A DNA stretch of 64,000 bases, from the NCBI RefSeq assembly GCF_022965805.1, contig NC_133104.1:24362069-24426068 (forward strand). The letters are read 5' to 3'. The translations under genes and the position numbers were made by a program. The DNA is from Primulina eburnea (Eukaryota > Streptophyta > Magnoliopsida > Lamiales > Gesneriaceae). Below are positions 38,871 through 62,485 of the stretch, piece after piece (positions within the stretch are counted from its first letter, which is position 1; each line of letters opens with the position of its first letter). The notes below the pieces were generated by a model. The model was not told the origin of the DNA, searched no databases, and worked only from the letters and a program-made list of their open reading frames with translations.

Positions 38871-41048
38871 TGTGGGGACCCGAACGCCGATCTTTTCTTA
38901 ATCTTCTTTGGGATTTAATTATCAATTAAGATAAAACCGGGTCTAAAAATTTTTCATTTAAAATACAAGTGCGGAAGGTAATGCATCTAAATAATATACA
39001 TATCTGTATAAAAGTACAAATCTTGTACAACATGTTTCTAGATCAAATTAATCTAAGGTTCAACTACTAAAGTTCCAGTAATAAAACCTATCTATACCCA
39101 AGTCCGGAATCACCACGCTAAAATAATCTTCTCTCATCATCTTCTGACCCCGATCTTGTCCCACCTGTTGTCATGCACACATACAAAACAAGACAACAGC
39201 CGGATAACTCCGGTGAGAATAAATCCCAGTATAAAACATGGTAAGCATGTATAGAAACAATCTAAATCATAAAACATGATATCATAAACCTATTCAAAAG
39301 TAATAGATTTCATAATCTATGAAATCAAATCAAAATAAGTATGCAACTCAAATCAGATAAACATGCAATTTAACTCAAATCATATAAACATGTGATCATA
39401 ACTGAAAGCAATAAACATGGGTTTCATAGTCTATGAAACCACATCTATAAATACATGCAGATCTAGTCAAATCATATCTAGACTCGACTCAAATATAACT
39501 CTAGGGATCCCGGTGTGAATAAGACGTCACTGATCTATCACCTACCCTCCCAATCGGGGTGACTGTACGTCTTATTCCTAGACTTCGGTCTGATCTGTAT
39601 CCACATTTACAATAGGAGAATGATTTTCCCCTAAGCTGTGATATCACCGAACGTCTAGAAGTATGACTGATCTGTCAAGACTCCCTATCTTAAATGCAAT
39701 GCGTAACAAACTGTAAACAAAGCATAGCATAGCATATCAGCATATAAACAAAACATATTCATATCAGAATATAACAATAATCTAGTATGTGATTTTGTTG
39801 GGAAACTCAAATAGGATCTTATTTGAGTTATATCATCCCGAATATCACATGAATTATAACTTTTTCGTCCCTGTCTGACGAAGACGAGGTCTGGTATTCC
39901 AATATGTCCATACCTGATCTGGCAATGACAATATCGAATACATTGTATCAGTGAATAACTCAATACACAATCTGTTCTGATCAATACTCAAATCGGTATA
40001 CAATCTGATCAAATTCAACAGTATAATCATGAATCTCAATCAATATCATATCTGATCAATCTAAATCAATACTAAATCTGATCAATCTAAATCAGCTGAT
40101 GTTTCGACGGCATAACAATACTATCTGAATAACCCTGTCAATCTGAACATCACAAATATAATTCTAGAACCCATAATCTGTGTCACTACAATTCATAATC
40201 TGAATACTAACACAATTCTGGTATAGAACCTCAGTCAATATCTTTCAAAAATCATTACAATTACAGAAACAGTCTGCTCTTTAATCTGCCTTCAATTCTA
40301 CAATGTCTACGGTAGTAGAAACACCATATCTGAATCATATTCGATTCTAGCAACATCATATTCAAAACATCTCAAAACGTAATAAAACTTACGTCCTTGT
40401 GTAGCTCGTGTCACGAGGAACTCAGAACTGAAGTCGAATTTGAATTCTGACGGGCGGATTTCTAACAATCGCAACTTTAAAAGGCGTAAGGAATTTCTCT
40501 CAAAGCCTCGCCCCTTTCCACTGAATTTCTGATGATTTATTGTGTCAATCATCCATATATATATTGCATTCAAGGTCGGAAATCGTGGCTTATTTTTCAA
40601 GCAACACGCATGACCGCGGGTGCGGTCGTGTCATGCACCGTGGGTGCGCTCATGCTTCGGCATTATCTTCATTTTTCTCGAAAGCTTCGACCGCAGGTGC
40701 GATCTTGTTCTTACCGCGGGTGCGGTCACACCACCGCGGGTGCGATCTTGTTCCTACCGCGGGTGCGGTCTTGGTTCGAATAAATTTGCCAACTTTTTGT
40801 CCATGCACCGCGGGTGCGGTCTTGGTTGCACCGCGGGTGCGGTGATGCTTCGGCCTCACCTTCAAAATTCCATTATTGCATGACCGCGATTGCACTCCTG
40901 TTCTAAGCGCGGGTGCGGTCTTGCAAACCCTATTTCTCATGTCTTTTCTTCCCTCATCGCACATCATGCATTCTCAGATCTTCCGAGTCTCACGTTAATG
41001 AAGATTAATAATCTTGGTTTATCAATTCTATATTTCTCGGGCCTTACA
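38871..41048 (-). mobile_element. 3' LTR (2178 bp) of the minus-strand element, CACCGCGGGTGCG family
   Basis: On the minus strand it opens TGTAAGGCCCGAG, next to a polypurine tract (complement of 41049-41064, TAAGAGGGGGAGAAA). It ends GTTCGGGTCCCCACA. It includes the array at 40611-40922, a donor-like GTAAGT (complement of 40387-40392) and the conserved block (39160-39217). Confidence 0.9.
40611..40922. repeat. CpG-rich palindromic array, ACCGCGGGTGCGGTC type
   Basis: About eleven units around ACCGCGGGTGCGGTC, centred on the palindrome CCGCGG, alternate with spacers such as TTGTTCTTACC or ATGCTTCGG. The LTR at 47219 carries the same core in the other orientation (GCGCACCCGCGGTG). Confidence 0.9.
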
Positions 41049-45039: not shown

Positions 45040-45056
45040 GTTCTGATACCACCTGT
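45040..45056 (-). promoter_or_regulatory. Primer-binding site (initiator Met tRNA)
   Basis: The minus strand reads ACAGGTGGTATCAGAACG directly after the LTR end CCCCACA. TGGTATCAGA is the tRNA match. Confidence 0.85.
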
Positions 45057-46415
45057 TGTGGGGACCCGAATGCTGATCTTTTCTTAATCTTCTTTGGGAT
45101 TTAATTATCAATTAAGATAAAACAGGGTCTAAAAATTGTTCTTTTAAAATACAAGTGCGGAAGGTAATGACATCTAAATAATATACATATCTGTATAAAA
45201 GTACAAATCTTGTACAACATGTTTCTAGATCAAATTAATCTAAGGTTCAACTACTAAAGTTCCAGTAATAAAACCTCTCTATATCCAAGTCCGGAATCAC
45301 CACACTAAACTCATCTTCTCCCATCATCTTCTGACCCCGATCTTGTCCCACCTGTTGTCATGCACACATACAAAACAAGACAACAGCCGGATAACTCCGG
45401 TGAGAATAAATCCCAGTATAAAACATGGTAAGCATGTATAGAAACAATCTAAATCATAAAACATGATATCATAAACCTATTCAAAAGTAATAGATTTCAT
45501 AATCTATGAAATCAAATCAAAATAAGTATGCAACTCAAATCAGATAAACATGCAATTTAACTCAAATCATATAAACATGTGATCATAACTGAAAGCAATA
45601 AACATGGGTTTCATAGTCTATGAAACCACATCTATAAATACATGCAGATCTAGTCAAATCATATCTAGACTCGACTCAAATATAACTCTAGGGATCCCGG
45701 TGTGAATAAGACGTCACTGATCTATCACCTACCCTCCCAATCGGGGTGACTGTACGTCTTATTCCTAGACTTCGGTCTGATCTGTATCCACATTTACAAT
45801 AGGAGAATGATTTTCCCCTAAGCTGTGATATCACCGAACGTCTAGAAGTATGACTGATCTGTCAAGACTCCCTATCTTAAATGCAATGCGTAACAAACTG
45901 TAAACAAAGCATAGCATAGCATATCAGCATATAAACAAAACATATTCATATCAGAATATAACAATAATCTAGTATGTGATTTTGTTGGGAAACTCAAATA
46001 GGATCTTATTTGAGTTATATCATCCCGAATATCACATGAATTATACCTTTGTCGTCCCTGTCTGACGAAGACGAGGTCTGGTATTCCAATCTGTCCATAC
46101 CTGATCTGGCAATGACAATATCGAATACACTGTATCAGTGAATAACTCAATACACAATCTGTTCTGACCAATACTCAAATCGGTATACAATCTTATCAAA
46201 TTCAATAGTATAATCATGAATCTCAATCAATATCATATATGATCAATCTAAATCAATACTGAATCTGATCAATCTAAATCAGCTGATGTTTCGACGGCAT
46301 AACAATACTATCTGAATAACCCCGTCAATCTGAACATCACAAATATAATTCTAGAACCCATAATCTGTGTCACTACAATTCATAATCTGAATACTAACAC
46401 AATTCTGGTATAGAA
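45057..46415 (-). mobile_element. 5' LTR of the minus-strand element, truncated (1359 bp remain)
   Basis: It matches 38871-40215 nearly base for base. Differences include CGCCGATC against TGCTGATC and ACCGGGTC against ACAGGGTC. The homology stops at TATAGAA (46415), so the U3 part with array and promoter is gone. This copy could no longer start transcription by itself. Confidence 0.9.
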
Positions 46416-46590
46416 TTGGGCCTAGTATAGTTAACTAATGGTCCCAATTGGGCCTAGTATAGTTAACTAATTGGGCCTAGTATAGTTAACTAATAAATCT
46501 AGAACCCATAATCTGTGTCACTCCTGTTCTAAGCGCGGGTGCGTGAACTTTAAAATTTTCGGGGCAATTGGGCCTAGTATAGTTAACTAA
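46416..46590. other. Rearrangement junction with templated-insertion-like filler
   Basis: Four copies of ATTGGGCCTAGTATAGTTAAC occur at about 46415, 46446, 46469 and 46566. Between the third and fourth sit two pieces of the adjacent LTR family: TAGAACCCATAATCTGTGTC (as at 46353 and 40163) and CCTGTTCTAAGCGCGGGTGC (as at 40897). The last copy is continuous with the LTR fragment to the right and is the likely template. Confidence 0.8.
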
Positions 46591-49169: not shown

Positions 49170-49415
49170 ATGCCTCCTCGACGAGTACTGCAACCAGTAG
49201 CAAGTCGAGCACCAGAACAAGGCAGTACTTCCAATGATCCGATGGATGTGACCGCTACACCGATGGAGACTTTGCTGAAAAAGTTTCAGTCGTTTCGACA
49301 ACCGACACTGAAGGGCACAGAAAATTCAATGGAGTGTGAAAGCTGGCTCGATGACATCGAGATGTTATTTGAATCTCTTGATTATACCGACGAGCGACGA
49401 GTTAAACTTATTGGG
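49170..49415 (+). pseudogene. gag, first part (interrupted)
   Basis: MPPRRVLQPVASRAPEQGS ... CESWLDDIEMLFESLDYTDERRVKL closely parallels the gag at 31702. The frame runs into the inserted LTR at 49416 and stops in it. The second half resumes at 62486, so the gene is cut by a 13-kb insertion. Confidence 0.9.
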
Positions 49416-50995
49416 TGATAAAGATAAAAAATTGTACATTAATTATTTTATAATATAAATATATAGTTTTTGTTTTATTAAATGTTTAAATATTACATGT
49501 TTTATAATAAATTGTATAAAATATAAGTTGTGTGTAATTATAAGTTTTTAATAATTTTTACAGGTTCGATAAAACAAGAATAACCTTGGCGTTGCAAATG
49601 GGATTAAGATGATTCTTGGACCTGTAGAAAGTTGATTATAATATCTACAATATTGTTGACAAGCATGAGATAAAAATTCTCTCACAATTGGGATCAAATT
49701 AAGCAACAAAGAAAGTTACCAAAGGAGTGGCAGTTTTACCATGCTCTAGTATTTTGACCATATCTCTCAAATTACTTAGTCAAATATTCTGAAAAAAATA
49801 CCACAACTAGACAACTCAATTATCCCCATGTTTCTTTTTATGTGAAGAAGCAAATTCGGAGAAGAAGATTTTCAAAAGTGATGTGTAATATAATATTAAT
49901 TTCTTGGAACACCAATGAAGACTTATGTGTAAAAAAATAATATTTTATTTGTGGTTGACTCCCCAAATTTGGCTATAAATAGGGGTGCATTGTAATGTAT
50001 TGAGATGTCCCTCATTCTATGAACAAACCTTTGAGTTCATAATATTTCTCTCTATATTTTTCTTTTATTTCTTCATTTAAATATAATTAGCATGTTAATT
50101 TCATATTCAAAGTTTTACACTTTGAATAATCAATAGCTAACTTCCTAAAGTTGAGATGATAAGGTGAAACTCTTGGCATGATAATAAGGTTATTAAAAGG
50201 TAAGAATCTATGTTTTATATTATTTAATCATTATTTATTGTTTATGTTATATTTATTTCTTTAAGCATTTTTATACCCTACTTATAAGTGGGAGTTTTGA
50301 TTTATTGTTGCTATATGTTACACTAAATTCTTGGAAACATTTAAATGTTAGTTTGGTATTACCAACCATTTAAAGTGGATGCCTTGATTTATTATATATA
50401 AATATATTATAATATTAAATTCTTGGAACCATTTAAATGTTAGTTTGGTTTTACCAACCATTTAACTTGGATTCCTCGATTTACTATATATAAATATATC
50501 ATAATAATATTTTCTTGGTACCTTTTAAATGTTAGTTTTTTACCAACCATTTAAAGTGGGAACCTTGATTTAGTGTTTACAAATATATATATAGCACAAT
50601 AAATACTTGACCACATTTATAAGTTTTGGTATATATTATATATTTATGAGATAATAATTTATAACATAATATAAATATGATTATTTAATATATTGGAACC
50701 ATTTTATTAAGTGGATTTCAATATTGTTCGTTAATGTTAACTTTATTAAAATACCAAGAGTGGATCCTTTAATCTCAACTACTTAAATTAAAATTTGAAC
50801 AATTAAAATTTACCCATTAAAGATTCAAACAATTAAAATTAAAAAAGAAACAAAAACAAAAACAATAACAAAAAGACATTGTAGTGGACTTGTAATTACC
50901 TTAGCTTCCCTGTGGATACGATATTCGGACTCACGGAATTATACTACTTGTGAGGACAACCTGCTCTTGAGAGTGCAACAATCAAAGTCGCAACA
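49416..50995 (+). mobile_element. 5' LTR (1580 bp) of the Athila-like element
   Basis: A TATA box GCTATAAATAGGGG lies at 49971-49984. From about 50325 to 50600, three to four imperfect repeats of roughly 92 bp carry the words TTCTTGGAACCATTTAAATG and TTTACCAACCATTTAA. The LTR ends GTCGCAACA. Confidence 0.9.
50325..50600. repeat. Imperfect ~92-bp tandem repeats inside the Athila-like LTR
   Basis: Each unit has CTTGG(A/T)ACC(A)TTTAAATG, GTTAGTTTGG, ACCAACCATTTAA and CCTTGATTTA. The 3' LTR carries the same set at about 61805-62080. Confidence 0.8.
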
Positions 50996-51018
50996 AGTTT
51001 TTGACGCCTTTGCCGGGG
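50996..51018 (+). promoter_or_regulatory. Primer-binding site (Asp-tRNA-like)
   Basis: AGTTTTTGACGCCTTTGCCGGGG begins right after the 5' LTR; the Athila site is, from memory, TGGCGCCGTTGCCGGGG, so two or three bases differ. Confidence 0.75.
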
Positions 51019-51190
51019 AAGTATAATTTAATTTCAAGTCTATTTAATATTGTTTATAGTTTATTTTTCTTTATTTGTATTTTATTGCTTTTGTGTTTTT
51101 TTTTTATTTTTCTTTTGCATTTGCATGAGCATTTGGTCAGGTACACTTAGTGATCGACTCATTCGAAACAACCCTTTATTTTTACAAAAC

Positions 51191-52725
51191 ATGGCGGAAG
51201 AACCCATCCAAGAAAATGAAGATGAAATTCAATCTCAACATGATCATGATAGACGAAGAACACTTAGAGATCACATGAATCCTAGACGTACTAGTGCACC
51301 TTCATGTCTAGTTTTTCCCCCTGATGCATCTCATTTTAATTTTAAGCCTGGTATTATCCAACTTTTACCCAATTTTCATGGCTTAGATTCTGAAAATCCA
51401 TACATGCATTTACGAGAGTTTGAAGAAGTGTGCAACACATATAATGATCTAAATTGTAGCATGAACACCATTTGACTTAAGCTTTTTCCTTTTTCTTTAA
51501 AAGATAAAGTTAAACTTGGCTACAAAATCTTAGATCGGGATCCATTCGAACTTGGGATGAATTGCAACAACAATTTTTGAAAAAGTTTTTTCCATCTCAT
51601 TGAACAAATTCTTTCAAAAGGCAAATCATCACTTTCACTCAAAAACAAGGAGAAACTTTTTATCACTGTTGGGATAGATACAAAGAATTGCTTAATCTTT
51701 GTCCACATCATGGTTTTGAAATTTGGAGAGTTGTTTCTCAATTTTATGAAGGCTTAACACCTAAAGATAGCCAAATGGTTGAATTTATGTGTAATGGAAC
51801 ATTTGAAGATAAAGATCCAAACGAAGCAATTGAGTATCTCGATTCATTAGCTGAAAATGCTCGAAATTGGGATACTATAGGTACAATTGAACCATCAAAC
51901 AAGATTCAATCTCCTACATCTGGTGGAGGTATGTACACTCTCAAAGATGAACATGATCTTCAAGCTAGATTTACCTCTTTGGCAAGAAAAGTTGAGGCAC
52001 TTGAATTGAAAAAGAATGGTCAATTAAAATCTGTTCAAGAAATTGTGTGTCACATCTGTGATACAAGTGATCATTTTACAAAAGATTGTCCCAATTTACC
52101 CTCTTTTAAAGAATGTCTCCATGAACAAGTCAATGTTTTGAACAATTTCAAAAGGCCAAATTTTGAACCATTTTCTCAAAATTACAATCTTGGTTGGCGA
52201 AATCATCCAAATTTTAGTTAGAGGAATGATAATGTTGCACAATTTCCGCAACCAAATTTTCAAAATCAACAAAATTTTCAAAATTATGCACCTTATGTTC
52301 CTCCACCTAAAAGGAATTTGGAAGATTTATTGAATTCTTTCATTGCAAAGGAAGAGTCTATCAATACTCAAACTGCTCAAACCATGACAGATTTGAAAGA
52401 TACTCTTGCTAAATTTGCATCTGCACTTAATGTTCATGAGAAAGGTAAATTTCTTTCACAACCTCTGCCTAATCCCAAGGATCATCATTCACAAACTGGA
52501 ACTTCTGGAACTCAACCGATGGATCAGGTAAAATCTGTTATTACCCTTCGAAGTGGTAAGGTTGTGGAAAAATCCATTCTTGAACCTTGTGAAGATGATG
52601 ATAAATCAACTTCAAAGGGTAAGGAAGTGGAACCCATAACTTCCGAAGAGGAGGTTCAACAGACAGTGTCACCACCATTCCCTCATGCATTGAAAAATAC
52701 AAAAAAAATCAAATTTGAATTCTGA
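51191..52725 (+). pseudogene. gag of the Athila-like element, broken by stops and a frameshift
   Basis: It starts MAEEPIQENEDEIQSQ, about 195 bp after the LTR. The segment GIIQLLPNFHGLDSENPYMHLREFEEVC matches the Athila/Tat gag core. A TGA ends the first frame at 51475, and the frame shifts before 51688. 51688-52221 holds HFTKDC of a CCHC-type knuckle (CHICDTSDHFTKDC). A TAG at 52219-52221 is followed in the same frame by 52222-52725, with ITLRSGK, a common phrase near the gag C-terminus in this group. Gag would form the particle and bind RNA. It cannot be made whole from this copy. Confidence 0.85.
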
Positions 52726-53416
52726 TATATATGATATTTTTAAACAAGTAAAAGTTAATATTCCTTTATTAGATGCAATAAAACAGGTACCATCATATGC
52801 CAAATTTTTGAAAGACTTGTGCACTGTGAAAAGAAAATTGAATGTGAAAAAGAAAGCAATTTTAGCCGAACAAGTAAGTGCAATCATTCAAAATAATAAT
52901 ACTTTGAAATACAAAGACCCTGGTTGTCCTACTATTTCATGTATTATTGGAGAACGAAAGATTAAAAAAGCCTTGCTTGATCTTGGAGCTAGTGTTAATT
53001 TACTTCCATATTCAGTTTATCAAGAACTCAATCTAGGCGAGTTAAAATCTACTTCGGTAACACTTTTACTTGCTGATAGATCTGTTAAAGTGCCAAGAGG
53101 TATGGTAGAAGACGTGTTGGTCCAAGTTGATAACTTTGTATATCCTGTCGATTTCATAGTTTTAGATACACAACCTATCGAAGCTTGTAATACAAATCCT
53201 GTAATTCTGGGTCGTCCATTTTTAGCAAATTATAATGCTCTTATAAATTGCAGGAATGGAATAATGAAGTTGTCATTTGGTAACATGACCTTGGAGCTCA
53301 ATGTTTTTAATCTTTGTAAGCAACCACATGACAAAGGAGATGAAAGTGGAGATGAAATTTTATTGAAACTCTTGTGGAAGAAAACATTCAAGAAGGGAGT
53401 ACTCGTGATCAATTAG
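52715..53416 (+). pseudogene. Protease region of the Athila-like element
   Basis: A 233-codon frame contains LLDLGASVNLLP, the Athila/Tat form of the aspartic protease active site (DLGAS in place of DTGAS), then ILGRPFLA, the second conserved protease segment. It overlaps the gag end in another frame. It ends at 53416, 32 bp before the nested solo LTR. The protease would cleave the polyprotein. Domain order and motifs are clear; the break downstream separates it from RT. Confidence 0.85.
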
Positions 53417-55182
53417 ATATTTGTTCAATTGAAACTGTTAAAGAAAATTGTGGGGACCCGGACGCTAATTATCTTCTTACTCATTATTGGGATTTAATTA
53501 TCAGTTCTGATAAACAGGGTCTAAAAAAGATTTTCTTTTTTTAAAATGTAACTGCGGAAGGTAATGGAATTTAAACAATATACATCTCTGTATAAAAACT
53601 ACAGTTCAGCAGAAAAGTACAATACTGTACAACCTAAGTCTAAGGTTCAATTACTAAATTCAAGTAATAAACCAAGTCTGCTACAAGTCCGGAATCACCA
53701 CGCTAACTCGTCTTCTCTCATCGTCATCTCGACCCTGATCCAGCCCCACCTGTTGTCATGCACACATACAAAACAAGACAACAGCCGGATAACTCCGGTG
53801 AGAATAAATCCCAGTATAAAACATGGTAAACATGCATATACACATAATGATTCATGGAACATGCTGTCCTGAATAAACGCAAAGACAATAGTAATAGATT
53901 TCATCATCTATGAACTCTAATCTAACTAAACATGCAATTCAAATCAGATAAACATGCATGTAAATAGTCTAAATCATGAAACATGCTGTCATGACTGAAA
54001 GTAATAACAATAGGTTCCATAGTCTATGAAACCAATTCATCTACGCATGCTGTTCTAATCAAATCATGTCTAGACTGGACTCAACTATAACTCTAGGGAT
54101 CCCGGGGTGAATAAGACGTCAATGGCTGTCACCTACCCTCCCAATCGGGGTGACTGTACGTCTTATTCCTAGACTTCGGTCTGAGCTGTATCGACGGCTG
54201 GCAATAGGAATAATGGCTATTCCTACGCTGAGATACACCGAACATCTAGAGAATTGACAATGACTGTCAAAGACTCTCCTATCTTAGCTGCAATGAATAT
54301 CAATCTGAAACAAAGCATAATCATATTCATATCTGAATATGGCAATAATCTCATACTTTTGAATAAAATGCTAAAATCAAAGCATAAACATATTAAAGTA
54401 TAAAGAACAGTCTAGTATGTGATTTTGTTGGGAAACTCAAACGAAATCTGATTTGAGTTGTAGCTTCCCAAATATCACATGAATTATACCTTTGTCGTCC
54501 CTGTCTGACGAAGACGATGACCTGTATTCAAATCTGTCCATATCAAATCTGAAAAGACAATATCGAATACATCGTATCAATGAATAACTCAATTCACAAT
54601 CTGTTCTGATCAATACTCAACTCAGTACATAATCTGATCAATATCTGAACAAGATACAATTCAATTCATGTCGTCGATATCACAATACAATCTAAATCAT
54701 ATCTGAATCTGATTAATCTAAATCAACTGATGTTTCGACGGCATAACAATACAGTCTGAATAACCCCGTCAGTTCTGAACATCACAATATAATACTGGAA
54801 TTCATAATCTGTGTCAATACAATTCATAATCTGAATACTAACACAATTCTGGTATAGAATCTCAGTCAATATCTTTCAAAAATCATAACAATTGTATAAA
54901 CAGTCTGTTTCTCAATCTGACTTCGATTCTATAATGTCTAACATGACAAGAACATCATATATGACTTCTATTCAATTCTGACCATAGCATAATTTCAAAT
55001 CATGTCTAAACGTAACAAAACTTACGTCCAGTTGTAGCCTGTGTTGATAGGAACACAGTGCTGAAGTCGGATTCAAAATCTGACAGACGGATTTCTCACA
55101 AAAGGCGTAAGGATTTTTCACTCTTTTTCAGAAACCTTTCTCGACTCTTTCTTCTTTTTTTCCTTTCTGAATTCAAAGATTG

Positions 55183-55595: not shown

Positions 55596-58579
55596 ATTGA
55601 AATTGATCTTGATGATTTTATCAGGTATCACTCGTTACCAGGATCAGAGAAAGAATTTGATGCAAAATATGAGAACAAAGACGAACCAGCAATATTGGAG
55701 TTAAAACCCTTGCCAGAAGAATTGAAGTATGCATTTCTTGGAGAAGATGAAACATATCCGGTGGTAATTTCTTCCAAACTTGAAAGTGATCAAGAAGGTA
55801 AATTAGTTGATATGCTTAAAAGACATAAAAATGCAATTGGGTGGACACTAAAAGATCTCAAAGGAATCAATCCACTAATTTGCTCTCACAAAATTCACTT
55901 CGAAGAAAATGCAAAAACATCTCAACAACCACAAAGGAGATTAAATCCACACATGAAAGATGTTGTGAAAACTGAAGTTCTCAAATTACTCGATGTTGGG
56001 ATTATCTACCCTATTTCTGATAGTAAGTGGGTAAGCCCAACACAAGTAGTTCCAAAAAAATCTGGCATCACTGTGATAAAAAATGAAAAAGGTGAATTGT
56101 TAACAAGTCGAGTCTCATCTAGTTGGCGGATGTGTATTGATTATAGAAAATTAAATGACGCCACTAGAAAAGATCATTTTCCATTACCATTTTTGGATCA
56201 AATTTTAGAAAGAGTAGCAGGTCATCCATACTACTGTTTTCTTGATGGATATTCAGGTTATTATCAAATTCCCATTGCACTCGAAGATCAAGATAAAACT
56301 ACATTCACATGTCATTTTGGAACACTTGCATTTAGAAGGATGCCATTTGGATTATGCAATGCCCCAGCAACATTTCAAAGATGTATGCTAAGCATTTTTT
56401 GCGACATGGTTGAAAATTGTTTGGAAATTTTCATGGATGATTTAACTGTCTTTGGGAATACATTTGATAATTGTCTTGAAAATTTGGAAAAAAGTTTTAA
56501 AAAGATGCGAGGAAAAAGGTCTTATTTTAAATTGGGAAAAATGTCATTACATGATTACTTCTGGAATTGTTTTAGGATATGTCGTGTCATCTCATGGAAT
56601 TGAAGTTGATAAAGCAAAAGTTGATGTCATTGCCAATTTACCCCCTCCAAAAACCATTAAAGAAATTCGCTCATTTTTGGGACATGCTGGATTTTATAGG
56701 AGGTTTATAAAGGACTTTATTTTAATCTCTAAACCCATTTGTAACCTCTTAACAACACTGCATTTGAGTGGACTCAAGAATGTCAAAATGCTTTTGATAA
56801 AATCATTCGACATTTAACATCATCTCCTATCATGCAACCTCCTGATTGGTCTTTACCATTTGAAATCATGTGTGATGCGAGTGATTATGCAGTCGGTGCA
56901 GTATTGGGTCAAAGAAGAAACGGTAAGCCTTATGTGATATATTATGCAAGTAGAACTTTAAACAATGCTCAAATGAATTACTCCACAACTGAAAAAGAAC
57001 TACTTGCTGTAATATTTCCATTAGATAAATTTCGTTCTTATTTGATTGGATCAACGACTATTGTGTTTACTGATCATTCTGCTATTATATATTTGTTGAC
57101 CAAACAGGATGCAAAGCCACGACTGATACGATGGATTTTGTTGCTCCAAGAATTTGACATTGTGATCAAAGATAAAAAAGGAATCGAGAATGTCGTAGCC
57201 GATCATTTATCAAGACTAGTAACAGGATCATCTTGTGAAATGACACCAATTAACGATAATTTTCCTGATGAACATGTATTTTCAGTTACTACTACACCCT
57301 GGTTTGCTAACATAGTAAATTTTCTTGTGACAGGAAAAATGCCACCGCAATGGAGTTCTCAAGATAAATGAAAATTTTTGAATGAGGTAAAAAACTTTTA
57401 TTGGGATGATCCGTATCTGTTCAAGTATTGTCCGGATCAAATTTTTCGACGTTGCATACCCGAAAATGAGGTAAGTAGTGTCATTAAATTTTGTCATTCA
57501 GAAGCATGCGGAGGACATTTTTCTTCAAAGAAAACGGCTGCAAAAATCTTGCAGTGTGGATTTTATTGGCCCACTTTGTTTAAAGACACCCACGAAATCT
57601 GCAAGATCTGTGAAAATTGTCAAAAATTGGGTGCGATTTCAAAAAGAAAGATGATGCCTTTGAATCCTATCATTGAAATTGAAATTTTTGACTGTTGGGG
57701 AATTGATTTTATGGGACCTTTTCCACCGTCGTTTGGATACTTGTATATTTTAGTTGCAGTTGATTATGTTTCCAAATGGATAGAGGCAATTCCATGTCGA
57801 ACAAATGATCATAAAATCGTCATCAAATTTTTGAAAGAAAATATTTTTAGTAGATTCGGAATTCCTCGAGCTATGATAAGTGATGGGGGAACTCACTTTG
57901 TTAATAAACCATTTGCTTCATTAATGAAAAAATATGGTATTAGTCACAAAGTAACTACTCCTTATCATCCTCAAACAAATGGACAAGTTGAATTAGCTAA
58001 TAGGGAGATAAAGCAAATTTTGGGAAAAACTGTTAACTCAAATAGAAAAGATTGGTCTCTGCGACTTAATGATGCACTTTGGGCATATCGAACAACTTTT
58101 AAAACATCATTGAATATGTCTCCCTATAGGTTGATTTATGGAAAACATTGTCATTTGCCTGTGGAATTGGAACATAAAGCTTATTGGGCGATCAAAACTT
58201 TAAATTCAAGCATGGATGATGCCAACAAATTGCGTAAATTGCAACTTAATGAACTTGATGAACTCAGAAATGACGCGTATGAGAATTCAAGGATTTATAA
58301 AGCAAAAATCAAATCATTTCATGATAAAACAATTCTTAGAAAATCTTTTGAGATTGGTAAAAAAGTTTTGCATTATAATTCTTGACTTCACATATTCCCA
58401 GGAAAATTACGATCAAGATTGACAGGCCCATATGTTGTAAAGCATGTGTATCCTTATGGAGCTGTGGATATTGAAAATCCTAAAAATGATGATGTTTTTA
58501 AAGTGAATGGACAAAGGCTTAAACCATTTTTGGAAAATGAAATCTTTCAAGAAGAGTTTATTTCCCTTTCTGATCCTTA
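55596..58579 (+). pseudogene. Broken pol: RT, RNase H and integrase of the Athila-like element
   Basis: RT: 55695-56603, with CIDYRKLNDATRKDHFPLPF, RMPFGLCNAPATFQR and the active site FMDD near 56434. A shift near 56500 moves RT into another frame (56452-56817). RNase H: 56832-57371 with [22 protein letters not shown] and TDHSA, then a TGA at 57369 in the same frame as the integrase. Integrase: 57378-58385. It has a zinc-binding part ([18 protein letters not shown]) and a catalytic core with [16 protein letters not shown] and [12 protein letters not shown], so all three acidic residues are kept. The tail at 58386-58579 is shifted and has no chromodomain. Two or three frameshifts and one stop make pol inactive. 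Confidence 0.9.
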
Positions 58580-58593
58580 AATTTTTATGTTGC

Positions 58594-58620
58594 ATTTAAT
58601 TTTGTTTGTTTTTATTTCAG
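58594..58620 (+). promoter_or_regulatory. Strong splice-acceptor-like site before the extra frames
   Basis: TTTTGTTTGTTTTTATTTCAG ends at 58620, 132 bp upstream of the 181-codon frame. Env-like frames of other elements are often expressed from spliced RNA, so this could serve the two extra frames. No donor has been tied to it. Confidence 0.45.
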
Positions 58621-58752
58621 GTTTCCTTAATCTTTTTATTTTCCCGGTTAAATGGCGGATAACGGTACTCCGTGACTCTCATAGTCGGTTAAATCAGTTT
58701 CCCACAATTGCTGATACAAAAATAAAAAAAAATCATTTCTTTTCTTTTCAAA

Positions 58753-59298
58753 ATGGATGAAATTCTCTCAAAAATTTGTAAATATTTTCCCTCTGTTTCT
58801 GAAAGTGTTTTAAGAAAAATTTATACAGGAAGGTGTGAAAGATTGAGATTGCTAATGCAAAAAGAAATTCCAGAAGATATTCGTCTTGTAATTGAAGCTA
58901 AGATCCGATTAGGAGGAGAAGTTCCACAATCATTGCTCATTCGGTATTTGCCTGGATTAGGAAAAAGCACTTATGCGAAAAAACGAAGGGCCAAAAGTTT
59001 AGGGGTTTGTCATAAGTGTGCAAGATGGACTTGTGACAAACGATGCAGATCTTTGGGATGTGTTTCCAATAACAGAGAAGATAAAATTGATTTCATTAAG
59101 AATGGGCTGAGTAAGGAGTCTTTAGATAACATCTTATTGACTCTTGAGACGCATTCTAGTGGACATGTGCATATTGAACTTCTTCGTTTATGGAAACAAT
59201 TTCAAGATGAACGTCATAGTCTTGGGAATCTGACTAAAAAAGACCCTGTTTGCCAATTTATAAGAAAATTGGATGAGAAATATATCCTCGACTCATAG
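58753..59298 (+). CDS. Unknown 181-residue basic protein with a Cys cluster, carried in the env position
   Basis: An uninterrupted frame starts ATGGATGAAATT after a pyrimidine-rich TTTCTTTTCTTTTCAAA. I do not recognise the family. Residues 1-60 are amphipathic with many Lys/Arg. Near residues 66-86 is the phrase PGLGKSTYAKKRRAKSLG. It is followed by CHKCARWTCDKRCRSLGC, five Cys spaced 2, 4, 3 and 4 apart that could bind zinc. The C-terminal third is predicted helical (LLRLWKQFQDERHSLGNL). No signal peptide or membrane segment is seen, so it is not a typical env. After the stop, another frame continues with YPRLIEGVEAVSGRKTRGKLKKK, so the original protein may have been longer and basic at its C-terminus. 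It sits between integrase and the LOG relic on the same strand. Its open frame in a decayed element is notable. Confidence 0.6.
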   Translation: MDEILSKICKYFPSVSESVLRKIYTGRCERLRLLMQKEIPEDIRLVIEAKIRLGGEVPQSLLIRYLPGLGKSTYAKKRRAKSLGVCHKCARWTCDKRCRSLGCVSNNREDKIDFIKNGLSKESLDNILLTLETHSSGHVHIELLRLWKQFQDERHSLGNLTKKDPVCQFIRKLDEKYILDS

Positions 59299-59383
59299 AA
59301 GGCGTTGAAGCCGTTTCTGGACGTAAAACCAGAGGAAAATTAAAAAAAAAGGTAAAAACACGGCTGGATCCTCTACACAAACA

Positions 59384-59997
59384 TTGAAAAATATTTGTGT
59401 ATTTTGTGGGTCGAGTCCTGGAAAAAGTGAAGTGTTTGTAGAAGCAGCGAATAATCTTGGAAAGATATTGGCTGAGAGAAAAATTCACTTGGTATATGGG
59501 GGAGGTAATATCGGGTTAATGGGATTTGTTTCAACATCTGCTCATCTTGGAGGTAGTCAGGTTTTGGGTATTATTCCTACAGCTTTAGCTGAAGGAAATA
59601 TTTCAGGTGTTACGATTGGGGAGGAATTAAAAGTTTCTTCTATGTATGAAAGAATCACTCAAATGATTGAAAATTCTGATGCTTTTATCGCACTACCAGG
59701 TGGTTTGGTACATTAGAAGAAATTTTTCACACTGTTTCTTGGGCACAACTTAATATCCATAATAAACCTGTGGGCTTGTTGAATATCAATAATTATTATG
59801 ACAGTTTGTTGATATTTCTTGATAAAGCTGTGGAACAGAATTTCATTTCAGAAAATTCACGACGGATGCTCATCTGTGCTTCGACTGCCGACCAATTAAT
59901 TGATGATTTGGAAGCTTTTGTTCATAAGCCTGATCCGATGATAGAAAATATCAATTGGTCGCAATCAAGCAGTAAGAAAAGGAAGTTGGATCATTGA
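59384..59997 (+). pseudogene. LOG: LOG-like cytokinin riboside 5'-monophosphate phosphoribohydrolase, captured and broken
   Basis: LOG enzymes release the free cytokinin base from its riboside monophosphate, the last activation step, in the cytosol and nucleus. The first frame (59384-59716) has ICVFCGSSPGKSEVF, LVYGGGNIGLMG, QVLGIIPTAL and DAFIALPGG, in LOG order. The second (to the TGA at 59995) has GTLEEIF, SWAQLNIHNKPVGLLNINN and the LOG C-terminus. Together they span about 204 codons, close to normal LOG length (about 210). There is no intron, whereas plant LOG genes have several. Two lesions: the start position reads TTG, not ATG, and one base is lost near 59704-59708, inside the PGGxGTxxE nucleotide-binding motif. 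Wording such as AANNLGKILAERKIHLVYGGG is nearer to LOGL10-type proteins than to LOG1-LOG8, from memory. It lies inside the retrotransposon, 86 bp after the preceding frame. Confidence 0.88.
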
Positions 59998-61206
59998 TTC
60001 AAACGTCGTGGATTGGTTTGCGTTTGTTTCAGTTTGTTATCTTCAATAAAATTCCAGGTGATATCTCTTTCATTATGTACTCTTTATTAATAGCTATTTT
60101 GACATTAGGGACAATGTCATATTCTGATTGGGGGGAGAACAAATTTAAAAAAAAAATAATTAAATATTATTTAAAATAAAACCATATTTATTGTTTGAAC
60201 CTTAGTAATTTTTGCAAAAATTTCATACTTTACATATTTGAAAGATTTAAATTAGAACATGTATTAATCTATTTAAGAATGTTTAAATTTTTATTTGAAA
60301 AAAGGTCATTTTTAATATTCTGATCAATATAAAAATATGATTTATGAAATCTTTTTGAGTGATTAACCATTGTGATAAAATTAGGTATTAAAGTATATGG
60401 CCCAAGATATACCTTATAAGAGTGCCTAAAATTTTAAACTCACACATATTTTGTGAGTGAGTGGAGAGGACTGAGAAAACAGCTTTCGAGCCTTTATTGA
60501 TCATGAGAGAGACTATCTATTGTTTAGATCTTGAGTTCTTATTTTGAAAAAAAAAATGATATTTCCTGGGAAAAAAAAAAGAGGAGAAAAAAAAAGGAAA
60601 GATATTGAAGATCTATGTAATTTTTAAGTTATATGCTACGACCCATATATCTCTCATAAAAAAAAAGAGAGAAAATTATTGTACAAATTAAATAAATATG
60701 TGGTCAAGAAGCATAAACTTAGTTTGATTCCATGATCTTATGAAAAAAAATAATAATAAAAATAATCAGGAAAAAAAAATATATAATAAGAACAACTAGA
60801 TTTTGAATCAATGGATTTTCTATCTTTTGATTAGTTTGGCTCGTTTGTCTGTCTGCATTCTGTAAACTATTTCCTTTAGCATTTATCTGTATTCCAACTC
60901 CATGAGAGAAATCATTGCCATAAATTTGAAACATTTATTAACCTGTGAGGATTTGGAGTTGAGACTCTTACTAGGAATTTCTAAAGGCCGTATACATTTA
61001 ACTACCTGAAATAAGCTTTGAATTGATCATCTCAAATTATTTCACAAATTATAATTATGATGATCTTGATATAACTTTGACAGTTTTCAAATTTAATTTA
61101 AACACTTGGATAGTTTTGATTACATTTCTATTTAAATTAATCAATATGTTTTGTATTGTTATTAACGCTTAAATTGCTAGGGACTAGCAATAAGCTGGTT
61201 GGGGAG
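59998..61206 (+). mobile_element. Non-coding 3' interior of the Athila-like element, with two polypurine tracts
   Basis: ACATTAGGGACAATGTCA followed by GATTGGGGGGAGAAC (60125-60140) is a signal commonly seen after the coding part of Athila/Tat elements. The true 3' polypurine tract is AAGCTGGTTGGGGAG (61192-61206), after TTGCTAGGGACTAGCAA, a 17-bp inverted repeat. In between lies A-rich DNA (several A-runs at 60546-60780) with no supported gene. Confidence 0.65.
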
Positions 61207-62480
61207 TGACAGTTTTACCATGCTCTAGTATTTTGACCATATCTCTCAAATTACTTAGTCAAATATTCTGAAAAAAATACCACAACTAGACAACTCAATT
61301 ATCCACATGTTTATTTTTATGTGAAGAAGCAAATTCGGAGAAGAAGATTTTCAAAAGTGATGTGTAATATAATATTAATTTCTTGGAACACCAATGAAGA
61401 CTTATGTATAAAAAAATAATATTTTATTTGTGGTTGTCTCCCCAAATTTGGCTATAAATAGGGGTGCATTGTAATGTATTGAGATATCCCTCATTCTATG
61501 AACAAGCCTTTGAGTTCATAATATTTCTCTCTATATTTTTCTTTTATTTCTTCATTTAAATATAATTAGCATGTTAATTTCATATTCAAAGTTTTACACT
61601 TTGAATAATGAATAGCTAACTTCCTAAAGTTGAGATGATAAGGTGAAACTCTTGGCATGATAATAAGGTTATTAAAAGGTAAGAATATATATTTTATATT
61701 ATTTAATCATTATTTATTGTTTATGTTATATTTATTTCTTTAAGCATTTTTATACCCTACTTATAAGTGGGAGTTTTGATTTATTGTTGTTATATGTTAC
61801 ACTAAATTCTTGGAGCCATTTAAATGTTAGTTTGATATTACCAACCATTTAAAGTGGATGCCTTGATTTATTATATATAAATATATTATAATATTAAATT
61901 CTTGGAACCATTTAAATGTTAGTTTGGTTTTACCAACCATTTAACTTGGATTCCTTGATTTACTATATATAAATATATCATAATAAAATTTTTCTTGGTA
62001 CCATTTAAATGTTAGTTTGGTTTTACCAAGCATTTAAAGTGGGAACCTTGATTTAGTGTTTACAAATATATATATAGCACAATAAATACTTGACCACATT
62101 TATAAGTTTTGGTATATATTATATATTTATGAGATAATAATTTATAACATAATATAAATATGATTATTTAATATATTGGAACCATTTTATTAAGTGGATT
62201 TCAATATTGTTCGTTAATGTTAACTTTATTAAAATACCAAGAGTGGATCCTTTAATCTCAACTACTTAAATTAAAATTTGAACAATTAAAATTTACTCAT
62301 TAAAGATTCAAACAATTAAAATTAAAAAAGAAACAAAAAAAAAAAAACAATAACAAAAAGACATTGTAGTGGACTTGTAATTACCTTAGCTTCCCTGTGG
62401 ATACGATATTCGGACTCACGGAATTATACTACTTGTGAGGACAACCTGCTCTTGGGAGTGCAACAATCAAAGTCGCAACA
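61207..62480 (+). mobile_element. 3' LTR of the Athila-like element, missing its first ~312 bp
   Basis: It matches 49728-50995 of the 5' LTR. The first 312 bp (49416-49727 in the 5' copy) are absent. The join reads GGGGAGTGACAG; the polypurine tract supplies GGGGAGTG and the 5' LTR has AAGGAGTGGCAG at the homologous internal point, so GGAGTG is shared. TATA box CTATAAATAGGGG at 61451-61463. Confidence 0.88.
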
Positions 62481-62485
62481 TTGAG

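Follow-up and report, generated by a model that had tools for sequence, protein, structure and literature searches.

Analysis of a 64,000-nt window of the Primulina eburnea genome (GCF_022965805.1, 812 Mb; contig NC_133104.1, 24,362,069-24,426,068) points, with a probability of about 0.6, to a high-copy Ty3/gypsy retrotransposon in which an accessory module of two genes lies between integrase and the 3' LTR. The module would consist of a homologue of the flexivirus nucleic-acid-binding proteins (NABP) followed by a LONELY GUY (LOG)-type enzyme, with functions that we infer. Here, the window means this whole stretch of DNA. Both genes lie in the interval 58753-59997, NABP at 58753-59298 and LOG at 59360-59997. 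The original prediction had read the entire interval as LOG, in the position of an expected env-like frame. A third gene consisting of LOG alone was rejected, since 58753-59298 is a separate, intact NABP gene (Carla_C4 25.4 bits, cutoff 20.9); NABP takes the env-like position and LOG comes second behind it.

Element architecture

Several features were defined by comparison with L001 (DAIEQH010000041.1), a 3.3-kb plant-like contig from a bacterial MAG record, in which the integrase and NABP frames are intact. This contig is filed under a Nomurabacteria MAG yet encodes a plant-type Ty3/gypsy integrase and NABP, and its presence in that bin is a probable case of plant contamination. The window copy has the following features.

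49411-49415, no strand: 5' target duplication TTGGG; its 3' partner is TTGAG at 62481-62485 (4/5 match)
49416-50995, + strand: 5' LTR, 1,580 nt, TG...CA, from LTR comparison with other copies
50996-51021, + strand: primer-binding-site region AGTTTTTGACGCCTTTGCCGGGGAAG, presumably complementary to tRNA-Asp
51050-52725, + strand: gag region with several broken frames; zinc-knuckle-like stretch scoring below cutoff
52715-53416, + strand: aspartic protease (PF13650, E 1.8e-6)
53449-55101, + strand: nested insertion in the gap between protease and reverse transcriptase, from repeat comparison; approximate outer edges
55695-56603, + strand: reverse transcriptase (PF00078, E 2.8e-21)
56832-57371, + strand: RNase H (PF17917, E 1.6e-36)
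57378-58579, + strand: integrase (PF17921, PF00665); frame open until 58385 and shifted after it
58609-58620, + strand: putative 3' splice-site-like TTTTTATTTCAG 5' of the NABP gene, from sequence only
58640-58715, + strand: conserved non-coding leader 5' of the NABP gene, from alignment with L001 only
58753-59298, + strand: NABP gene, 181 aa, intact; Carla_C4/Viral_NABP family, C86-x2-C89-x4-C94-x3-C98
59296-59341, + strand: conserved trailer, predicted to fold into two small hairpins; 88% identical to L001 across 101 nt (two sequences compared)
59341-59342, + strand: junction at which a 144-nt GT...AG segment is precisely missing, from spacer comparison with other copies
59360-59997, + strand: LOG gene, broken in the window copy; start codon lost, frameshift near 59704-59713
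61207-62480, + strand: 3' LTR minus its first 311 nt, from comparison with full LTRs of other copies

The order protease, reverse transcriptase, RNase H and integrase was recovered by Pfam scan in the window copy, with broken frames, and paired TG...CA LTRs with a target duplication were found in all eight copies in which both LTRs were located. The element is a plant Ty3/gypsy retrotransposon, probably of the Athila lineage to judge by its motifs. The Athila ORF-1 family PF03078 was absent from the Pfam matches of the nine window frames scanned. This family is not obligatory for Athila, because 16% of Athila elements have it (PMC6317226). A tRNA scan of the window found none.

LTRs with a matching target duplication had been predicted, and both are present; the 5' LTR, however, starts at 49416 and not near 49728, and the duplication matches at four of its five positions. 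A start at 49728 with a 5-bp duplication there was rejected, as AGGAG precedes that point in 8/8 comparable copies. The supposed polypurine tract at 61206 turned out to be a deletion edge, because the window 3' LTR lacks its first 311 nt.

The repeat family of the nested insertion has three copies in the window, at 38871-40468, 45056-46416 and 53449-55101, the last of them inside the element. The leader block, window 58640-58715 and L001 1667-1742 (GGCGGATAACGGTACTCCGTGACTC...GTCGGTTAA), is strongly conserved, above the bases just 5' of it, and is a possible RNA element. An Rfam scan of 58500-60200 gave two matches, both far below cutoff. In the trailer one stem is changed on both sides, CTGG/CCAG in the window and CTAG/CTAG in L001, the two sequences compared.

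Copy number and insertion age

Searches of the genome gave 1,420 candidate places for NABP and 1,172 for LOG. The best 150 of each were scored: all 150 NABP places match and 145 have no internal stop, while all 150 LOG places match the first LOG piece at E 2.2e-60 or better, 148 of them without an internal stop. Both genes are thus abundant in the P. eburnea genome; counts of pairing and intactness need not hold genome-wide, because the scored places are those most like the window copy. NABP copies are grouped on C13 at 8.0-18.2 Mb and on C15 at 11.05-11.06 Mb, with three within 7 kb on C15; these groups are perhaps nested or tandem arrays in a pericentromeric location.

For dating, ten copies were hand-picked from the paired list, with both ends sampled; the LTR was incomplete in two of the fetched stretches. 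The full LTR is about 1,570 nt long (1,478-1,578 nt in the eight other copies) with ends TGATAA...GCAACA, and the eight of the ten with both LTRs located all have exact 5-bp target duplications. Among these eight, the K2P distance between LTRs is 0 in five, 0.00064 in two and 0.00127 in one, so that the sampled, hand-picked copies inserted very recently. The window copy, with a K2P of 0.017, is older than all eight. The original prediction had supposed that the element once altered hormone levels; the word "once" is doubtful, because the LTRs of 5/8 dated hand-picked copies are identical.

The NABP gene

The window NABP matches Carla_C4 (PF01623) at E 1.4e-5 over 37 residues with the score given above, and reaches 22.1 against Viral_NABP, just under the cutoff of 23. 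For the L001 protein the scores are 20.4 for Carla_C4 and 34.1 for Viral_NABP. A protein search gave 255 matches at E <= 0.01 from 302 candidates; the 120 listed matches carry a precomputed Carla_C4 assignment, with Xanthoceras, Populus, Rhamnella, Orobanche and Acer as the sources of those that are named. Across 112 aligned sequences, the four finger cysteines are conserved in 107, 108, 111 and 110. Each of the two viral families matches 17 of 18 NABP relatives at E <= 0.1, with Viral_NABP reaching E 2.9e-8 and spanning 84-88 residues.

A first fold model had a pLDDT of 53. With a model of pLDDT 68, the two best of nine BFVD matches were flexivirus silencing suppressors, neither of them significant (E 0.26 and 1.6). 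A PDB search with the NABP alignment gave a best E of 0.33, tblastn of NABP against phage sequences gave six weak records (best E 0.4), and scans of viral contigs with NABP, LOG and integrase gave no confirmed match. In the NABP tree, from which nothing is concluded because it was displayed without branch support, the LOG-bearing members are set apart from each other. Silencing suppression is a role of the viral relatives of NABP, one of which acts as a plant transcription factor that causes hyperplasia (PMC12172455).

Pairing of NABP and LOG

When the best 150 places of each list were compared, a listed LOG place lay 88-245 nt downstream of NABP in 93 of the 150 NABP places. Eighty loci were then fetched, 40 taken from the 57 unpaired NABP places, 20 from the 93 paired places and 20 from the 57 unpaired LOG places, and both genes were found in 75 of them (36/40, 20/20 and 19/20, respectively). 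The four unpaired-NABP loci without LOG are L022, L052 and L059, in which the match ends inside the spacer, and L050, in which it ends just past the LOG start. Intact frames were counted in these 80 loci for NABP (65), for LOG (67, of which 66 are the 212-aa frame) and for both together (55). Integrase lies upstream in 17 of the 18 longer records L002-L019, two of which are the window itself, and LOG was seen in 17/18. The predicted association of LOG with the element therefore recurs from copy to copy, and the order integrase-NABP-LOG is recurrent in the element family.

A second subfamily, with a 232-aa open frame, accounts for 12 of 150 rows among the listed matches. The only place of this subfamily that was read, L120, has the same NABP-LOG order, with NABP 59% and LOG 67% identical to the window; its NABP contains stops. 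LOG was not found in the 1 kb behind NABP of L001. Because of this relative, NABP seems to be the common third gene with LOG added behind it, and LOG may be dispensable in some lineages.

Searching with a query of one NABP and one LOG protein, 422 proteins matched among 4,309 candidates. Both domains occur in 4 of 120 listed proteins, two from Orobanche gracilis and two from Citrus; one Citrus model, P0258, scores 20.5 for Carla_C4, just under the cutoff of 20.9. A true NABP-LOG fusion was considered and is unlikely, because the four joined models skip the end of NABP and the start of LOG, as predicted introns would. They look like neighbouring NABP and LOG genes bridged by predicted introns. 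One Rhamnella gene model joins integrase to NABP, and two Xanthoceras LOG models include a 29-residue piece of the element polyprotein.

A probable spacer intron upstream of LOG

In most copies the spacer between NABP and LOG holds a segment of ~144 nt that starts with GTGAGCC and ends with TTTCGCAG, 24-28 nt before the LOG start. Of the 98 records L002-L099, some of which are the same place, 73 contain both splice ends. The exact segment is missing in four records that represent three places, the window, L016 and L064, and the remaining records are without one end string or the anchor used for scoring. An intron-less junction was found at seven genomic places, window included, against none in a reversed-pattern control; these may stem from fewer than seven events. 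In L001 the same GTGAGCC string is present, without LOG.

The precise GT-AG loss suggests that RNA is spliced a short distance ahead of the LOG start codon. It is best read in this way because it is common to copies of an element with an RNA intermediate, and since seven sites carry the intron-less junction, copies were probably made from spliced RNA. The observed splice alone does not explain LOG translation, because the stop codon of NABP precedes the intron that is removed.

The LOG gene and its origin

The prediction that a Ty3/gypsy element holds an intronless LOG between its integrase and its 3' LTR was borne out, with PF03641 (Lysine_decarbox) found in both window pieces (E 1.5e-11 and 5.1e-19). 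In the window copy the first codon is ACG, and the frameshift near 59704-59713 falls inside the PGGxGTxxE motif. Both pieces match the Arabidopsis LOG structures 2a33 (LOG3) and 1ydh (LOG8).

PGGxGTxxE is present in 67/67 intact element LOG copies. The RK pair, found in all four reference LOG chains, is kept in 4 of the 220 readable sequences among 240 LOG relatives; 192/220 instead have R with L, M or I after it, and the Arg is kept in 201/220. Element LOG chemistry may differ, because most relatives have lost the Lys of this pair. A basic tail, SKKRKLDH, ends 61 of the 67 intact element LOGs. Among the 120 listed LOG proteins P0241-P0360, mostly of the Populus type, 101 have LxLxL within their final 12 residues, usually preceded by a basic patch; such tails (e.g., KKLRLDLSLRL, against KKRKLDH in the window family) resemble the EAR repressor motif. 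One Populus relative, P0342, passes TIGR00730 (172.9, cutoff 96.35) and scores 122.7 with NF058542, below the 300-bit equivalog cutoff, a shortfall that says little on plant-type LOGs because that model serves bacterial and archaeal annotation and the comparison has no plant LOG control.

Host LOG genes were searched with a 35-residue query, longer host queries being swamped by element copies. This gave 15 places with 65-91% identity and short open frames of 36-123 aa, against 53-59% identity at element-type places. The one host locus that was read, L121, is split into six exon pieces and clusters with Arabidopsis LOG3 (93/95), to which it is 91% identical; the element frame is intronless by comparison, as had been predicted. 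Element-type LOGs are ~50% identical to L121. In a tree of 19 chosen sequences, of the kind proposed originally, they make up a clade of their own (84/92, or 95/96 when Xanthoceras is left out), apart from the plant and bacterial references (two Arabidopsis, one of the host's own and two bacterial). In the sampled trees, whose taxa were hand-chosen, a single LOG clade holds sequences from rosids and from one asterid, and one old capture would be the simplest reading. Capture of a spliced host mRNA, as first suggested, is a possible origin that fits.

Apparent selection on both genes

The dN/dS calculation proposed for element-borne LOG gave 0.20 between subfamilies (five copies against L120), with bootstrap pN/pS limits of 0.249-0.446. 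Pairwise values between the window and L001 are 0.28 for NABP and 0.11 for integrase. All of these are approximate, because synonymous sites are well diverged (dS about 1.2); for NABP and LOG dN/dS is well below 1. Within the family, pN/pS among intact copies is 0.39 for NABP (35 distinct) and 0.41 for LOG (49 distinct), values that lean low because the copies were preselected as open frames. Against a spectrum-matched null with stops excluded, the observed-to-null ratio is 0.55 for NABP and 0.49 for LOG, the pairs not being independent. One-step codon variants present in >= 4 distinct copies are more often synonymous than singletons for LOG (p 0.018) and for both genes pooled (p 0.003); for NABP alone this test gave p 0.16. 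Both genes appear to be kept by selection.

Alternative explanations

A LOG that was captured once and is copied along as a passive passenger, functionless for the element, would agree with L001, in which NABP has no LOG in the 1 kb behind it, and with the broken LOG of the window, where the insertion is fairly recent (K2P 0.017). The dN/dS of 0.20 between subfamilies already weakens this idea; together with the intact 212-aa frame in 66 of the 80 fetched loci and the single clade across rosids and an asterid in the sampled trees, it makes a passenger decidedly unlikely. Unlikely, too, is a neofunctionalised Rossmann protein that no longer activates cytokinin and whose basic KKRK tail would serve a nuclear role or partnership with NABP: the motif PGGxGTxxE in 67/67 intact copies and the Arg retained in 201/220 relatives argue against it, set against the RK change to mostly R plus L, M or I (192/220) and the basic tails, whether SKKRKLDH (61/67) or the KKLRLDLSLRL-like ends of the Populus type. 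The intronless frame would also suit a retrogene that entered the window locus separately. This is refuted here and keeps a negligible probability, as LOG stands behind NABP in 75/80 loci and in the second subfamily, the two genes are joined in gene models of two other genera, and no poly(A) follows LOG in the window or in three other copies inspected. A LOG confined to one locus, host introns or a separate poly(A) tail had been named as contrary findings; LOG is not confined to this locus, its frame has no introns, and the four copies viewed have no poly(A).

The likeness of NABP to flexivirus proteins could also be convergence on a short zinc finger with a basic stretch. The Carla_C4 match covers only 37 window residues, Viral_NABP stays at 22.1 below its cutoff of 23, the L001 and Citrus P0258 proteins fall just short for Carla_C4 (20.4 and 20.5 against 20.9), and the fold match is not significant. 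Convergence is nevertheless quite unlikely, given that two viral Pfam families each recognise 17/18 members at E <= 0.1, with Viral_NABP values up to 2.9e-8 and matches over 84-88 residues, and that the two best of nine BFVD matches are silencing suppressors of flexiviruses, albeit with E values of 0.26 and 1.6.

Proposed mechanism

In the preferred reading, a Ty3/gypsy element with a NABP-LOG module, LOG would be made from spliced element RNA. NABP would use its zinc finger and basic stretch to bind nucleic acid and, as its viral relatives do, may counter RNA silencing and protect element RNA, or change host transcription. LOG would release active cytokinin locally in cells that express the element, and the raised cytokinin could favour dividing or meristem cells, by way of which new insertions pass to the next generation. 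The full proposal is tentative, with slightly less than even odds: a currently mobile lineage would keep under selection a counter-defence and hormone module, made up of a silencing-suppressor homologue and a cytokinin-activating enzyme, with LOG expressed via splicing, and would reprogram replicating cells in a virus-like manner.

Relation to known systems

Like the env-like third ORF of Athila elements, the module lies between pol and the 3' LTR; unlike it, the Primulina sequence has its matches in viral NABP and LOG and none in the Athila ORF-1 family. The element LOG resembles plant LONELY GUY enzymes (2a33, 1ydh) in matches over both pieces and in PGGxGTxxE in intact copies, and differs from the Arabidopsis LOGs in being 44-53% identical, intronless, in a separate clade, changed at RK and basic at its tail. 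With the flexivirus cysteine-rich/nucleic-acid-binding proteins (Carla_C4, Viral_NABP), NABP shares the Pfam match and a C4-type finger with an adjacent basic stretch, whereas it is encoded by a retrotransposon, is about 181 aa long and has LOG behind it. AlkB domains are likewise known from flexiviruses. Phalaenopsis Gypsy elements with an AlkB domain also combine a retrotransposon with an extra regulatory gene; the gene is another one, and demethylase activity in vitro was shown for it (PMC9289625).

The original prediction knew of no description of a LOG gene in such an element, which is wrong for LOG alone. In 2011 Steinbauerova et al. reportedly described two Athila-like elements similar to LOGL4. 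A LOG (YgdH) domain has been published in Gypsy elements of Citrus and, without an abundance filter, of Populus (PMC9289625, citing Steinbauerova et al. 2011). These elements are alike in having a LOG domain inside a plant Ty3/gypsy element; section 12 of PMC9289625 mentions no viral-type protein, intron, age or selection test for them. The published Citrus elements are probably of the same lineage as the Primulina element, because Citrus NABP-LOG gene models were found. Open PMC literature, searched mostly at the level of titles and abstracts, yielded no retrotransposon described as carrying NABP and no account of NABP paired with LOG. The presence of LOG in Ty3/gypsy elements is therefore already published, and the viral-type protein and the pair are without a report found in that literature.

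Implications

If the proposal is true, a "selfish" plant element manipulates the hormone and silencing pathways of its host by genes of its own, beyond gag and pol. Plant RNA viruses and retrotransposons would be linked through a shared gene family, and genes would have been exchanged between flexiviruses and retrotransposons, in either direction. The many intact and some very recent copies would offer a tractable system in which to ask if raising cytokinin is a means by which retrotransposons enter the germ line.
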